Source: Candidatus Zixiibacteriota bacterium
Lineage (GTDB): Bacteria > Zixibacteria > MSB-5A5 > SM1-73
Assembly (NCBI GenBank): GCA_023129805.1
Contig: JAGMBK010000087.1
Coordinates: 1-7,604, forward strand
DNA: 7,604 nt
Reading direction: 5' to 3'
Shown here: piece after piece, positions 2,081 through 6,270 of the stretch
Position numbering within the stretch: position 1 is the first letter of the stretch
How the letters are laid out: the number at the start of each line of letters is the position of its first letter
Notes under the pieces: generated by a model
The model's database searches: none
Told to the model about the DNA's origin: nothing
What the model saw: the letters and a program-made list of their open reading frames with translations, nothing else
Program-made: the position numbers and the translations under genes

Positions 2081-2200
2081 AGATTTTTTACTTTAACGGA
2101 TTGAAGCTATTGAGGATTTTTACTTCCCACCTCTCCTGCGGCTCTAAGGAGAGCTTCCAGTTGGGGAACAGGACCAAACTTTGCTGAACCCTCTCGTAAA
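2081..2200 (-). pseudogene. Displaced 3'-end fragment of a GH57 gene
   Basis: On the minus strand this encodes YERVQQSLVLFPNWKLSL and onward to a TAA at 2088-2090, the same C-terminus as the intact GH57 enzyme. It matches 4107-4222 in direct orientation over 116 bp with ten differences. Positions 2081-2138 are identical to 4107-4164, including seven bases beyond the stop, where similarity ends abruptly. All ten differences are transitions; nine are synonymous and one is Lys/Arg. Just upstream in the gene, Tyr replaces Phe, then similarity fades into a hairpin at 2203. The fragment therefore came from a functional GH57 homologue that was under selection, not from old decay. It is either a displaced gene end left by cassette integration or the stub of a lost tandem paralogue. 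Confidence 0.88.
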
Positions 2201-2202
2201 GT

Positions 2203-2227
2203 GCATCAGGGCACCTTACCCTGATGC
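2203..2227. repeat. Hairpin capping the GH57 fragment
   Basis: GCATCAGGG (2203-2211), 7-nt loop, CCCTGATGC (2219-2227): a perfect 9-bp stem. It begins where similarity to the intact GH57 gene ends and so marks the left edge of the three-gene cassette. No T-tract follows on the plus strand. Confidence 0.65.
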
Positions 2228-2330
2228 GAATTACAATCATTCAAGAATAACAGCTAAAACACTATTTGTCAAATAAAAACCCCCTAAAACACCCGGACGG
2301 CAGAGTAGGCGCACATGAGGTGAAAAATGC

Positions 2331-2359
2331 TTGACTTTTGAGAGGGAAACACGTAAAAC
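2331..2359 (+). promoter_or_regulatory. Candidate sigma-70-type promoter of the three-gene operon
   Basis: TTGACT (2331-2336) is five of six to the -35 consensus. A 17-bp spacer leads to TAAAAC (2354-2359), four of six to the -10 consensus. It faces the operon at 2473 and would give a leader of about 105 nt. The remaining DNA from 2228 to 2472 shows purine-rich GAGAGAGAG (around 2366-2374) but no gene or strong structure. Confidence 0.45.
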
Positions 2360-2472
2360 AGGAAAGAGAGAGAGCTAACTAGAAAGACGGAGCTTTAAAA
2401 GAAATGATAAGTTGGGCAGAGAGCATGGCCCGATAGTGAAATTCCGGCTGACAATGTCGATAAGTTAAGCGT

Positions 2473-3213
2473 ATGAGAGCATCCAAGCAAATAAGCAAAG
2501 AGTTGAATACGGCGCAAGGAAGAATAATTAAGATTCAAACCGTTATTGACTTCGAAAAAGAGCCCAAGGTAAGGCACAAAGTTTTCGAGATCGAGGACCG
2601 GTTACGAGAGATTTTGCCCCAGACCGCCATAGTAGCTCCCGTGCCGGAAAATGAGCCAGAAGAACTTCCCCGGGTAATTTTCCCCGGCATAGAAAGCTGC
2701 AATTTTTCTCAGATTAGGATGGATTACGTAGTCCAAGTGCAGAAGGATAGAAGCAGAGAAGTTAATAAGGTGCTCCGTGAAACGGAGCAAAAAGCGACTA
2801 GGATTTTTAGTGCATTTCAAGAGCATACTGGAAGGGCCATCACGCGAATGGGGGTGATTGTCCATTTCGTGTTTCCTCTTGCTGCTAAAAAGAGTTCACG
2901 GACCTATCTACACCGAACTTTCTTTAAGGCGGATTTCACGCCGCCGAATCTAACTGAGTTAGATTTTCACTTTACACAGCAGTCACAGGCTAAATATAAC
3001 ATAAATTGGCTTATTAAAGCTGTAAAGGTTTCGGACGGTGCCCAAAGGGACGCAGTTTTGGTACTAATGGATGTTAACAATTACCTGGAAAAAACCAATA
3101 AAAAAATCACTTCGTACCCCAACGACGTAATCAAGGAAATTTTCGCTTTTCTGAAGGAACATATCAAAACCAAGCTACCCGCGGTAGTCAGAAATCAATT
3201 TACTTTGGAGTGA
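2473..3213 (+). CDS. Uncharacterised protein, first gene of cassette operon
   Basis: Encodes 246 residues; I do not recognise the family. ATG at 2473 is the first start after an in-frame stop at 2461-2463. No clear ribosome-binding site precedes it, so the true start may be further in; the N-terminal 25 residues are K/Q-rich. There is no signal peptide or membrane segment. Residues about 30-50 (EIEDRLREILPQ) look helical. Residues 52-75 are Pro/Glu-rich. The middle is mixed alpha/beta with RMDYVVQVQ, a helical stretch, then ITRMGVIVHFVFPL. Near residues 195-206 comes the strand DAVLVLMDVNNYLEK, then a closing helix (DVIKEIFAFLKEHI). This order loosely recalls TIGR04255-type proteins, which are sporadic and linked to mobile DNA, but that is a weak guess. 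The stop lies six bases before the next gene, with a GGAG between, so the two are co-translated. Confidence 0.75.
   Translation: MRASKQISKELNTAQGRIIKIQTVIDFEKEPKVRHKVFEIEDRLREILPQTAIVAPVPENEPEELPRVIFPGIESCNFSQIRMDYVVQVQKDRSREVNKVLRETEQKATRIFSAFQEHTGRAITRMGVIVHFVFPLAAKKSSRTYLHRTFFKADFTPPNLTELDFHFTQQSQAKYNINWLIKAVKVSDGAQRDAVLVLMDVNNYLEKTNKKITSYPNDVIKEIFAFLKEHIKTKLPAVVRNQFTLE
3207..3210 (+). promoter_or_regulatory. Ribosome-binding site coupling the first two cassette genes
   Basis: GGAG sits in the last codons of the upstream gene, nine bases before the ATG at 3220 and overlapping the termination region. This arrangement favours translational coupling. Confidence 0.55.
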
Positions 3214-3219
3214 AGAAAT

Positions 3220-3705
3220 ATGGATGAAAGAGGAAGCAACAAAACCGCCGTAGACACGCCTCAGGGGGCATTTCACCCGGACCTACTGAGAGAATTAGAT
3301 CCATCATCCACTGTTCCTCTCGCCGCACGGGCGCAAGAATACCCCTGGGTTCCACGCACCGCGACGGCGCCTCACCTTGTGAGTTTCTATGTGATTGAGC
3401 GCCGTGATATAGATCAGTTGATTGAGGAGAATGTTAGACTTAGGCAAGACATCAGCGATCTATCAGGCAAAGTCGCTGAGCTTGTGGAGATTCTTCGCGG
3501 AGATTACATTAGTAGGGCTGAAAACTTCATTGTGCTGCGTGAAATCTCTATGCGCCAGGCGAAAAAGGAGATTGTGAAACTGTTTCAAAAGAGCGGTTCC
3601 CTCTACTACTCCGACATCGCGGAGCAGCTTCGGTTAGACCTTGAACTCGTTGTCGACCTGTGCGCTGAGCTTGAAAAAGAAGGGAAAATTAAGCCAAAAC
3701 AATAA
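3220..3705 (+). CDS. Small coiled-coil protein with C-terminal winged-helix-like segment
   Basis: Encodes 161 residues; the family is not recognised. Residues 1-52 are low in structure and rich in Pro, Ala and Thr (PSSTVPLAARAQEYPWVPR). Residues about 58-93 (IERRDIDQLIEENVRLRQDI and on) have the heptad spacing of a coiled coil, suggesting a dimer. Residues about 113-158 (AKKEIVKLFQKSG, YYSDIAEQLRLD, LVVDLCAELEKEGKI) read as a winged helix-turn-helix, with SDIAEQL as the first helix of the motif and ELVVDLCAELEKEGKI as recognition helix and wing start. A DNA-binding regulator of the operon or an accessory subunit would both fit. It starts six bases after the first cassette gene, and its TAA overlaps the next ATG by one base (TAATG). 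No membrane or export signals are present. Confidence 0.75.
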   Translation: MDERGSNKTAVDTPQGAFHPDLLRELDPSSTVPLAARAQEYPWVPRTATAPHLVSFYVIERRDIDQLIEENVRLRQDISDLSGKVAELVEILRGDYISRAENFIVLREISMRQAKKEIVKLFQKSGSLYYSDIAEQLRLDLELVVDLCAELEKEGKIKPKQ

Positions 3706-4082
3706 TGGCTAAGTATTACGAAGCTGGCGACGCAATAGCTGGCAAGAGAATTGCAGCATGGTTCAGGGGCATGGACCTCAAGAGCGAGATTGACAAAGGC
3801 GTTCTCGGGAGTAGATGTTTTAGAGCGAAATTAAGAGGGAACGTATTCTGCGTTATCGAGAAATGTTTGGCGTTGAGCGTCATCAGATCCTTGAAAAAAC
3901 CAAATATTCATTTGAGCCGTGGCGATTCCTTGAAGGCGAAGCAGATCATGACGGAATTTGGCAAGATGAGAAGACAATCGCTTGTTCAGGGGTCGTCGAG
4001 TCATCGAATTCGAACAACGACTTTCGAAGATAAGGTTTATTGCGTTATAGACATGCCTTTCGAGGCTGTCAAAAATCAATAA
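3705..4082 (+). CDS. Small uncharacterised protein with internal V-[FY]-C-V-I repeat
   Basis: Encodes 125 residues; the family is not recognised. The ATG shares one base with the upstream stop (TAATG), so translation is probably by reinitiation; the nearest purine run (AAGGGA, about 3680) is too far away to act as a normal binding site. The protein is basic, soluble and lacks a signal peptide. Residues 38-52 (CFRAKLRGNVFCVIE) and 101-116 (RIRTTTFEDKVYCVID) resemble each other: an Arg-bearing strand, a turn, then V-[FY]-C-V-I followed by an acid. This suggests a duplicated beta-hairpin. The helical linker between them (about 72-93) is Lys/Met-rich. It ends 31 bp from the convergent GH57 gene with no convincing terminator between. 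As the last and smallest gene of the cassette it could be an accessory or effector protein; no function can be assigned. Confidence 0.65.
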   Translation: MAKYYEAGDAIAGKRIAAWFRGMDLKSEIDKGVLGSRCFRAKLRGNVFCVIEKCLALSVIRSLKKPNIHLSRGDSLKAKQIMTEFGKMRRQSLVQGSSSHRIRTTTFEDKVYCVIDMPFEAVKNQ

Positions 4083-4106
4083 CCCTTAGCTCCTCCGCTT
4101 CCCAAA

Positions 4107-4222
4107 AGATTTTTTACTTTAACGGATTGAAGCTATTGAGGATTTTTACTTCCCACCTCTCCTGTGGCTCCAAGGAGAGCTTCCAATTAGGAAATAAAAC
4201 CAAACTTTGCTGAACCTTTTCG
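4107..4222. repeat. Right-hand direct repeat: intact GH57 gene end
   Basis: This is the partner of 2081-2196. The two copies are 2,026 bp apart start to start and bracket the three-gene operon. The first 58 bp (to 4164) are identical. The outer edge lies seven bases past the GH57 stop codon, typical of attachment or exchange points that use the 3' end of a gene and leave its product intact. Confidence 0.85.
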
Positions 4223-6270
4223 AATCCTTCTTCAGATAATGAGACGGTATAGATGGGAAAACGCCAGAGTTGGGATTGGCGGCTAAGCTTGAAGTTTATA
4301 TCCAGATTCAGGTGATGGTCTTTGATCCCGAACTCCTGGCATCTTGCTGCATTACCCATCTGGACTAACTCCTTGTGTTCAATCTGATCTTCTTTGATGT
4401 AACAAAAGCTTCTTTCATCTTGGTTCCCCGGAATGGCCAAGCCAAATTCAATCCCGAACCATAAGTTGACTCTCGCCGAATAATTATTTACCAAAAGATA
4501 TGAAATGTCCAACTTAGAACTGTTTGGTTTAAGGCAGATCTTTTTTGCCACGGTAAGTGGTGCTCTTTTGTCCCTCACCCACACGAATCCATCCCGGTAT
4601 AAGGTGAGATCAAAACCTTTTTCCCCACGTTGCATCTTATAAAGATATGGCTGGTTTACAAAATCTCCCTGTTCGGGATATCGACATGCGGAGAAATCCT
4701 CCACCTTTGTCTGCTCCCCCAGAAAATGATCGATCAGAGAACCACGTCGATACCAATCATAGGTCAAAAACTTCTCCAGCCCCTCCTCCTTGGTTAGGAT
4801 AAGATCGTGGATGCTGGCCACCTGCTCATTCTGCTCATCTTGCTGTTTTTCCTGCCTCTCCAAAAGCTTATTGTGATATCCCTCTTCTCTTCTGGTCAAG
4901 GTATCCAAAAGATTTACACTTTTTGGCTTAAAATCCAACTCGAACAAACTCCCTCCAGAAGAGAGGGAGAAATACAAACTGAAAATGGGGGTATGCACTA
5001 AAAGCTCATCTCTGCCATCTTTATCAAAGTCAATAACCTGGTGGTCCACCCAATTCTTGGCAGTATGAGTAAGCTCATCTGCAAGCTTTTCTGCTTGGAT
5101 AAGATTTTCGTAAACCGCGGAACGGAGATGAGGAAGATACAATCCACCGAACACCCCATGCCAGTAAGGACAATTACACTGTCCCTTCCACAAAAAGTCT
5201 TTTGCTTTATTTAATTTGGTTTTGCTTTTCCGTTTCTGATTTTCGATTTCGCTGATCTTTAAGCTTAAGTTAAGCATCTTCTTGTGCATGTTGTTGGCTT
5301 CAGGATATTTTGCCAGAAAGTTTCGCCAGAAGCCGCCCCTTACGAAGGGTCCAAATCGCTCATACAGATTCTGTTCTTTCAAGATGTGTTCAAATTCCTC
5401 ATATTCGGCAAAGGCGCGGGCAGGCAAAGCCCACTGCATCATCTCATGATAGGAGGCGGTGGGAAGATAAATCCTCCCTTTTGGAGGAAGCAAATTTAAG
5501 GCATCTTTCAGATGAATCATCTCGATCCAATTTGCATTGTGCTCAATTTCATCAAAGAATCTTTCGATCCATCTATCTTTGAAGCAGTGCTCATATGTCT
5601 GGGGCCACACTCCGAATTTTTCTCCATCATCTCCATACACGATCAGATTTTCTCCATTCTCGGAGGCGATCTTCTTAAAATATTTAATGGTCTTCTCCGG
5701 TTCTTTAAAGGGGATGGAGTAGCGCAAAAATTTGGAGGAGGAGAAGAGAGCCAAAAGGTGCCCTTCCTCTTCGGTGAGATAATAACCTAAAAGCTCTTCA
5801 TCTGAGAGCCCGGAATATTTGAAATGGGAATCGTCCACAATGGTATACCTCACCCCTGCTTCAGATAAAGCTTTGGGAAGATGGGGTTCCCAGATCCTTT
5901 CTGCCAGCCACAGCCCCACCGGTTGGGTGTCAAATTCTTGTCTTAAAAAATCTGTCAGTTTCTGGATCTGTCCGATCTTGTCGCTATCCGGGACGACCGC
6001 AAGTATGGGTTCATAATATCCTCCGGTGAGCATCTCCACCTGACCTCTCCCAATCATAGATCTCAATTTGTCCATGATTTCCGGATGATGCTTTTTTATC
6101 CATTCAAGCAGAATTCCGGAGAAATGCAAGCTTATCTTGAAGCGGGGGTGTCTTTCTAAGATCTCCAGGAAGGGGAGATAGCTGTGGGTGAAAGCATGCT
6201 CAAACACATGTTCAAAATTGCCAATGGGCTGATGATTATGAATGGCAAAAGCGAATTTGATTTTTTTCAT
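4114..6270 (-). CDS. GH57 4-alpha-glucanotransferase / alpha-amylase
   Basis: Encodes 718 residues of a cytoplasmic-type glycoside hydrolase family 57 enzyme that cleaves and re-forms alpha-1,4-glucan bonds in maltodextrin or glycogen. There is no signal peptide. Conserved regions appear in order: HNHQP (11-15), GGYYEP (83-88), WLAERIWEPH (121-130) with E124 as nucleophile, and YGDDGEKFG (212-220) with D214 as acid/base. These sit almost exactly where the catalytic pair lies in the Thermococcus litoralis enzyme (E123, D214). The catalytic barrel covers about 1-300, a helical DUF1925-like segment about 300-395, and a beta-rich DUF1926-type C-terminal domain about 405-715 (starts FDKDGRDELLVHTP). 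A Gln/Glu-rich insert (471-483) and a Lys-rich one (345-355) may explain the extra length over the roughly 660-residue relatives. The start is ATG at 6268-6270 with GGGGGAAG upstream. Transferase versus amylase cannot be separated from sequence alone. Its last 36 codons are partly duplicated at 2088-2196. Confidence 0.93.
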   Translation of the reverse strand: MKKIKFAFAIHNHQPIGNFEHVFEHAFTHSYLPFLEILERHPRFKISLHFSGILLEWIKKHHPEIMDKLRSMIGRGQVEMLTGGYYEPILAVVPDSDKIGQIQKLTDFLRQEFDTQPVGLWLAERIWEPHLPKALSEAGVRYTIVDDSHFKYSGLSDEELLGYYLTEEEGHLLALFSSSKFLRYSIPFKEPEKTIKYFKKIASENGENLIVYGDDGEKFGVWPQTYEHCFKDRWIERFFDEIEHNANWIEMIHLKDALNLLPPKGRIYLPTASYHEMMQWALPARAFAEYEEFEHILKEQNLYERFGPFVRGGFWRNFLAKYPEANNMHKKMLNLSLKISEIENQKRKSKTKLNKAKDFLWKGQCNCPYWHGVFGGLYLPHLRSAVYENLIQAEKLADELTHTAKNWVDHQVIDFDKDGRDELLVHTPIFSLYFSLSSGGSLFELDFKPKSVNLLDTLTRREEGYHNKLLERQEKQQDEQNEQVASIHDLILTKEEGLEKFLTYDWYRRGSLIDHFLGEQTKVEDFSACRYPEQGDFVNQPYLYKMQRGEKGFDLTLYRDGFVWVRDKRAPLTVAKKICLKPNSSKLDISYLLVNNYSARVNLWFGIEFGLAIPGNQDERSFCYIKEDQIEHKELVQMGNAARCQEFGIKDHHLNLDINFKLSRQSQLWRFPIYTVSLSEEGFEKVQQSLVLFPNWKLSLEPQERWEVKILNSFNPLK

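Follow-up and report, generated by a model that had tools for sequence, protein, structure and literature searches.

A three-gene cassette between direct repeats of a GH57 gene end in a Candidatus Zixiibacteriota contig, possibly a small island without an integrase

A 7,604-nucleotide stretch of a Candidatus Zixiibacteriota contig (hereafter the window) contains a cassette of three genes (1,910 bp, positions 2197–4106, plus strand; 2,026 bp when one repeat copy is included) that lies between an intact GH57 gene and an orphan copy of the 3′ end of that gene. From this arrangement of intact gene, insert, and orphan end we infer that the cassette has been mobile. We assign a probability of roughly one half to the reading that it is a small island, devoid of an integrase, whose entry took a single crossover at the GH57 3′ end. 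A putative circle bearing its own GH57 gene end would have recombined once with the chromosomal gene end. The gene would thereby have stayed whole, followed first by the cassette and then by the orphan gene end; the crossover would have been made by a site-specific recombinase that acted in trans or has since been lost from the element. The reading draws on the repeat with its mostly silent differences, a flanking sequence shared with one relative, the parallel with e14 and icd in Escherichia coli, and the occurrence of the gene trio elsewhere, yet of neither P1 nor P2 in the relative's phylum. It also draws on precedents for islands without an integrase, as far as the available portions of those reports describe them (PMC3191183, PMC3146451).

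The intact GH57 gene (4114–6270, minus strand), which would be the target of the insertion, encodes 718 residues with Glyco_hydro_57, AmyA-A_glucT_m, and AmyA-gluTrfs_C domains. Its best relatives by protein identity are found in Zixibacteria SM23_73_3 (L001, 86%), L003 (77%, over part of the protein), and L002 (76%). Base-by-base comparison bore out the 116-bp copy of the gene end that had been reported in a first-pass annotation: the orphan copy (2081–2196, minus strand) and the att-like copy joined to the gene (4107–4222, minus strand) form a direct repeat in the same orientation with an offset of 2,026 bp, and they are identical at 106 of 116 bases. The homology begins 7 bases beyond the GH57 stop codon (these bases being 4107–4113) and ends inside the gene at 4222/2196. 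As also described in that annotation, 58 bp are identical without a mismatch (2081–2138 on the minus strand, equal to 4107–4164), and this block constitutes the outer (3′) half of the repeat; all of the differences lie toward the gene interior, where 48 of 58 bases agree. The ten differences are, again as described, all transitions, of which nine are synonymous and the remaining one changes K to R; random placement of transitions in that stretch would leave at least nine of ten silent with p = 8e-4. The direct repeat itself is far above the chance level, with 39 repeated 20-mers in the window versus none in any of 50 block-shuffled windows.

Leftward of the GH57 gene, three plus-strand open reading frames encoding P3 (3705–4082, 125 residues), P2 (3220–3705, 161 residues), and P1 (2473–3213, 246 residues) precede the orphan gene end, and the start codon of P3 overlaps the P2 stop codon by one base. 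P1 matches PHROG 22817 (function unknown, E 5e-9) and lacks any substantial match in Pfam, NCBIfam, or PADLOC; P2 combines a variable N-terminus with weak winged-helix matches in its C-terminus; P3 has no family match. The absence of an integrase noted in the first-pass annotation held up, in that domain-family scans recognized no recombinase or other mobility domain in P1–P3, and no recombinase, integrase, or reverse transcriptase was found among the seven window proteins scanned with Pfam. Assignment to a known defence system was rejected, the PADLOC matches being weak only (BstA at 0.016 for P1, CasR at 5e-4 for P2, and a restriction enzyme at 7e-4 for one P3 relative). The predicted fold of P3 was uninformative (pLDDT 44), and that of P1 (pLDDT 65) matched neither PDB nor viral entries at E 0.001. 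Searched by sequence, P1 had no solved relative at the same threshold, with two chance-level matches (E 0.17 and 0.44).

Just inside the cassette edge, a hairpin at 2202–2228 has nine Watson-Crick pairs, a terminal T-G pair, and a 7-nt loop; no T run accompanies it, and its exact sequence was absent from the 92 loci examined and from viral contigs. A 29-bp stretch upstream of P1 (2330–2358, plus strand) probably serves as the promoter of the P1–P3 operon; it is matched at 90–93% near other genes at two mutually related loci (L093 and L094 1501–1529) from other genomes of the phylum of L001, and a consensus promoter scan did not list it. The GC3 of the cassette (0.47–0.52) is close to that of the neighboring genes (0.50–0.56), so either the cassette is no recent arrival from a genome that differs strongly in composition, or it has adapted since. 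Elsewhere in the window, 88–804 encodes a protein with a nucleotidyltransferase domain (NTP_transf_2; PADLOC PDC-S09, E 5e-12) that scored far below the cut-off of the MntA antitoxin model, and no toxin partner for it was recognized among the scanned window proteins. Positions 1082–1935, spanning two open reading frames, hold what we take to be dockerin-like and PNPFNP-type C-terminal sequence, and are probably a decayed secreted-protein gene; 1082–1696 gave no Pfam match.

If the cassette was inserted, a relative may retain GH57 followed directly by the sequence that flanks the orphan copy, as the first-pass annotation had proposed, and this arrangement was observed in L001 only. The blastn match of the orphan copy to L001 continues as far as window position 2049; that of the full gene breaks off at 4106. 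The sequence downstream of GH57 in L001 aligned to the outer flank of the orphan with a local score of 48 (maximum of 29 in 2,000 shuffles) and to the cassette side, at 4106, with a score of 14 (shuffle mean 15.3), and when the window was scanned in 25-base steps the outer flank of the orphan was its best match. The flank match covers 36 bp, of which 30 are identical, and starts 28 bases past the stop codon in L001 versus 54 in the window; the L001 contig extends 64 bases beyond the stop. In L002, the sequence after GH57 had no blastn match to the cassette. The flank itself (1981–2080) belongs to a dispersed intergenic repeat family (L083–L092) with five matches in G001, one in G002, and four in G003 at E ≤ 0.001, three of the last being overlapping tandem units; the 1.9-Mb genome of L001 holds five matches, one of which was taken as the GH57 site itself. 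The L001 gene end is probably an uninterrupted site. Its dependence on a single relative, a short contig, a mismatched spacing, and a flank from a dispersed repeat family counts against the island.

Relatives of P1–P3 were sought among sequences sharing common short exact words (E 0.001), which yielded seven for P1, five besides itself for P3, and 44 besides itself for P2. All three genes appear to lie together on three other contigs (22,731, 182,032, and 2,589 bases), one of them Zixibacterial, and in pairs on three further contigs, as judged from the equal lengths of the contigs that carry them; on the 22,731-base contig the trio has the consecutive locus tags KAX39_01510, 01515, and 01520. 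The protein search counted two contigs for the exact P2 and a single one for the exact P3. P2 and its KAX39 relative match at 23 of 56 residues and then at 77 of 105, in keeping with the general pattern among P2 relatives of a C-terminal part that is kept and an N-terminus that varies. P1 and P2 were found in none of 132 genomes of the phylum of L001 (a search run without a positive-control genome), and P1 in none of 15 further genomes. The P1 profile likewise found nothing in five groups taken to be the phyla of the GH57 relatives (0 of 82, 0 of 345, 0 of 64, 0 of 400, and 0 of 3 genomes, the sets of 345 and 400 being drawn from larger groups).

Scans of viral contigs for P1 and P3 gave nothing useful, and searching phages and plasmids at both the protein and the DNA level (P1 and P3 in either set, P2 in phages) returned one distant P1 match. 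This relative, from a Leptospira phage, has 22% identity to P1 (E 1e-6; profile E 2e-16), and the P1 profile found it in one of 16 genomes, the phage record itself. It is encoded upstream of His-Xaa-Ser genes (L081 3736–5429), and a viral-contig scan with it retrieved a single near-identical contig (L103). On that contig (L103 3368–7694), an open reading frame for a 577-residue ATPase (AAA_15) with best PADLOC matches to NsnB (3e-52) and AriA (2e-27) lies upstream of the P1 relative, in a stretch that the phage record annotates differently; the region is possibly an undescribed defence neighborhood. The cargo-like setting of the phage relative is the one hint of a defence or selfish role for P1–P3, and our guess is that the three genes, which form a conserved operon, are a module of that kind. 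It is highly improbable that they are the mobility machinery itself, which would make the cassette a minimal 2-kb gene-end element with an undescribed recombinase and little or no other cargo.

The first-pass annotation viewed the cassette as mobile and placed the recombination within the conserved core. Of that proposal, an insertion that left a copy of the gene end is supported, in agreement with the site in L001 and with the e14/icd control; the placement of the recombination is not. Wherever a single crossover falls, every position ends up with one allele from the chromosome and one from the element, and the identity of the core therefore cannot locate the exchange. We argue instead that element and chromosome already agreed over the 58 bases or that the copies were merged there; the identity could stem from gene conversion, from a previous cycle within this lineage, or from two strains having been joined by the assembler. 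If the crossover occurred near the inner edge, as in e14, its site would be the 18-base identical stretch at 2173–2190, with the present GH57 end derived from the element and the orphan being native; if it occurred in the 58-bp block, the inner half of the orphan would be that of the element. As to polarity, GC3 is 0.80 in the diverged half of the orphan (20 codons) versus 0.50 in the gene and 0.65 in L001, and the outgroup states at the differing sites favor each copy at some positions.

A crossover in the identical block would also leave homology extending inward from it (48 of 58 bases), which is unusual for a classical attP and in keeping with homologous recombination. A related species that carried the cassette beside a GH57 end may have supplied the DNA, which RecA would have joined through the near-identical gene end, with no attachment site involved. 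We consider this capture rather unlikely, though it is in keeping with the lack of a recombinase among the seven proteins scanned, an observation that counts against the island, and with the species-like divergence of the repeat copies (the window and L001 are 86% identical over the gene). It leaves unexplained how the cassette first arrived between two gene ends, and 116 bp is a short homology for efficient RecA exchange.

The single-crossover island further implies a gene end that can serve as a target, and the copy number of this end was surveyed in other genomes. No second copy of the own gene end was found in 80 GH57 loci, 72 of which extend at least 2,026 bp downstream; few of the loci are close relatives, the row for L003 is void because its own GH57 end reads N, and the survey addressed gene ends rather than integrases. 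Peptide matches in L036 and L041 lie inside their own GH57 genes and were set aside, and nucleotide matches of up to 22 bp in L035, L039, L043, L059, and L079 were treated as chance. The last 58 residues of GH57 were matched in 89 of 132 genomes of the phylum of L001 (taken as Zixibacteria), once in 87 of them and twice in G038 and G043. The additional end in G038 abuts a stretch of N and shares 97.9% identity with the first over 377 bp that include downstream sequence (L120 6930–7306 and L121 7977–8353), and that in G043 begins at base 16 of a contig of 3.3 kb, the other genes of which likewise resemble the first locus; both are likely artefacts of scaffolding, assembly, or strain mixture. 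Three more distant relatives (L127–L129) each show one gene end within the stretch examined, which for L129 comprised 1,040 bases downstream. These counts make the orphan end beside GH57 so far peculiar to the window. They also weigh against the island, since GH57 ends are no known target. A thin literature search showed no GH57 attachment site among the papers listed.

The duplicates in G038 and G043 lend some plausibility to a similar origin for the repeat studied here. A contig that switched strains inside the 58 identical bases would turn strain differences into differences between the copies, and the true repeat might then be perfect. The identical block is just above 55, a common assembly word size, and all ten differences fall in the other half (p = 6e-4 for a split picked post hoc). 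Nevertheless, no repeat covers the joints at 2196/2197 and 4106/4107, which should be real, so a cassette between two GH57 ends stands even in a strain-mixed contig, and the window sequence is free of N. We regard strain mixing as a doubtful source of the pattern. That the repeat remains from a tandem GH57 duplication whose second copy was mostly replaced by the cassette is less probable still. The copies are near one another in the same orientation, and a distant second GH57-family gene (21–22% identity) occurs at four of the 80 loci (L046, L064, L077, and L079), in L064 about 250 bp downstream (L064 8133–11299). This explanation was set aside because the two full tandem copies that the first-pass annotation had named as contrary evidence were seen at none of the 80 loci; in addition, nearly all matching genomes of the phylum have a single gene end, and the homology has an abrupt edge 7 bases after the stop. 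A template and variable repeat pair of a diversity-generating retroelement, suggested by a repeat some 100 bp long at a gene 3′ end, is refuted by transitions of both kinds, nearly all silent, in place of adenine changes; no reverse transcriptase was found among the seven proteins scanned.

If the preferred reading of a small integrase-less island is correct, the window holds a gene-end island of very small size, from a phylum on whose mobile elements one literature search returned a single paper that names Zixibacteria once, and short cassettes exist that island finders keyed to integrases would miss. The three genes of the cassette would then form a rare and conserved module, one protein of which has a distant phage relative. 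No new principle would be involved: as far as the available parts of the sources go, e14 and the microcin H47 island already exhibit the two halves of the mechanism.

We compared the cassette with known systems, beginning with e14, which belongs to a class of prophages that carry their own integrase; the cassette contains none that was recognized. In E. coli K-12, icd and icdC flank e14, and our alignment of the two gene ends revealed about 165 bp in common, with homology running just past the stop codon and 11 differing codons, two of which change the residue (both D to E). The window is similar in that an intact target gene and a displaced homologous end flank the insert, and in that its copies, too, extend a little beyond the stop and have mostly silent differences. 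It differs in that e14 spans 15.2 kb versus the 1,910-bp cassette, in that the 11-base stretch shared exactly by icd and icdC lies at the inner edge of their homology and the identical block of the window at the outer edge, and in that weaker gapped similarity continues beyond the icd stop. According to the portion of the report available, e14 supplies the 3′ end of a protein-coding gene and the displaced end stays at the other side (PMC6379469), as proposed for the cassette. Strand-biased circularizing elements were dropped from the comparison, those in the accessible part of their description carrying tyrosine recombinases and inverted repeats (PMC10214605).

The microcin H47 island offers a likeness of another kind, as a small island without a recombinase, whose extensive direct repeats of 148 and 144 bp are imperfect (76% identity) and for which excision and integration through functions supplied from elsewhere were shown experimentally, according to the sections at hand (PMC3191183). 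That island measures 13 kb and the same sections describe no gene-end copy (PMC3191183), and movement in our case is deduced from sequence. Cis-mobilizable elements (CIMEs) keep attL and attR at a gene end after loss of integration and transfer genes, in the available accounts (PMC5704250, PMC3146451), and 15 ssrA islands of Dehalococcoides without an integration module might, in the words of their authors in the part consulted, be such elements (PMC3146451). The cassette shares with these att-like repeats at a gene end and the absence of integration and transfer genes, as in cis-mobilizable elements or parasitic islands generally. The Dehalococcoides islands differ, as far as that account goes, in their use of a tmRNA gene, a 20-bp repeat, and the presence of adjacent related islands with an integrase, of which none is known for the window. 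By analogy, and apart from the integrase that marks the e14 class, the cassette appears to resemble a gene-end island with the anatomy of the CIMEs and of the microcin H47 island.
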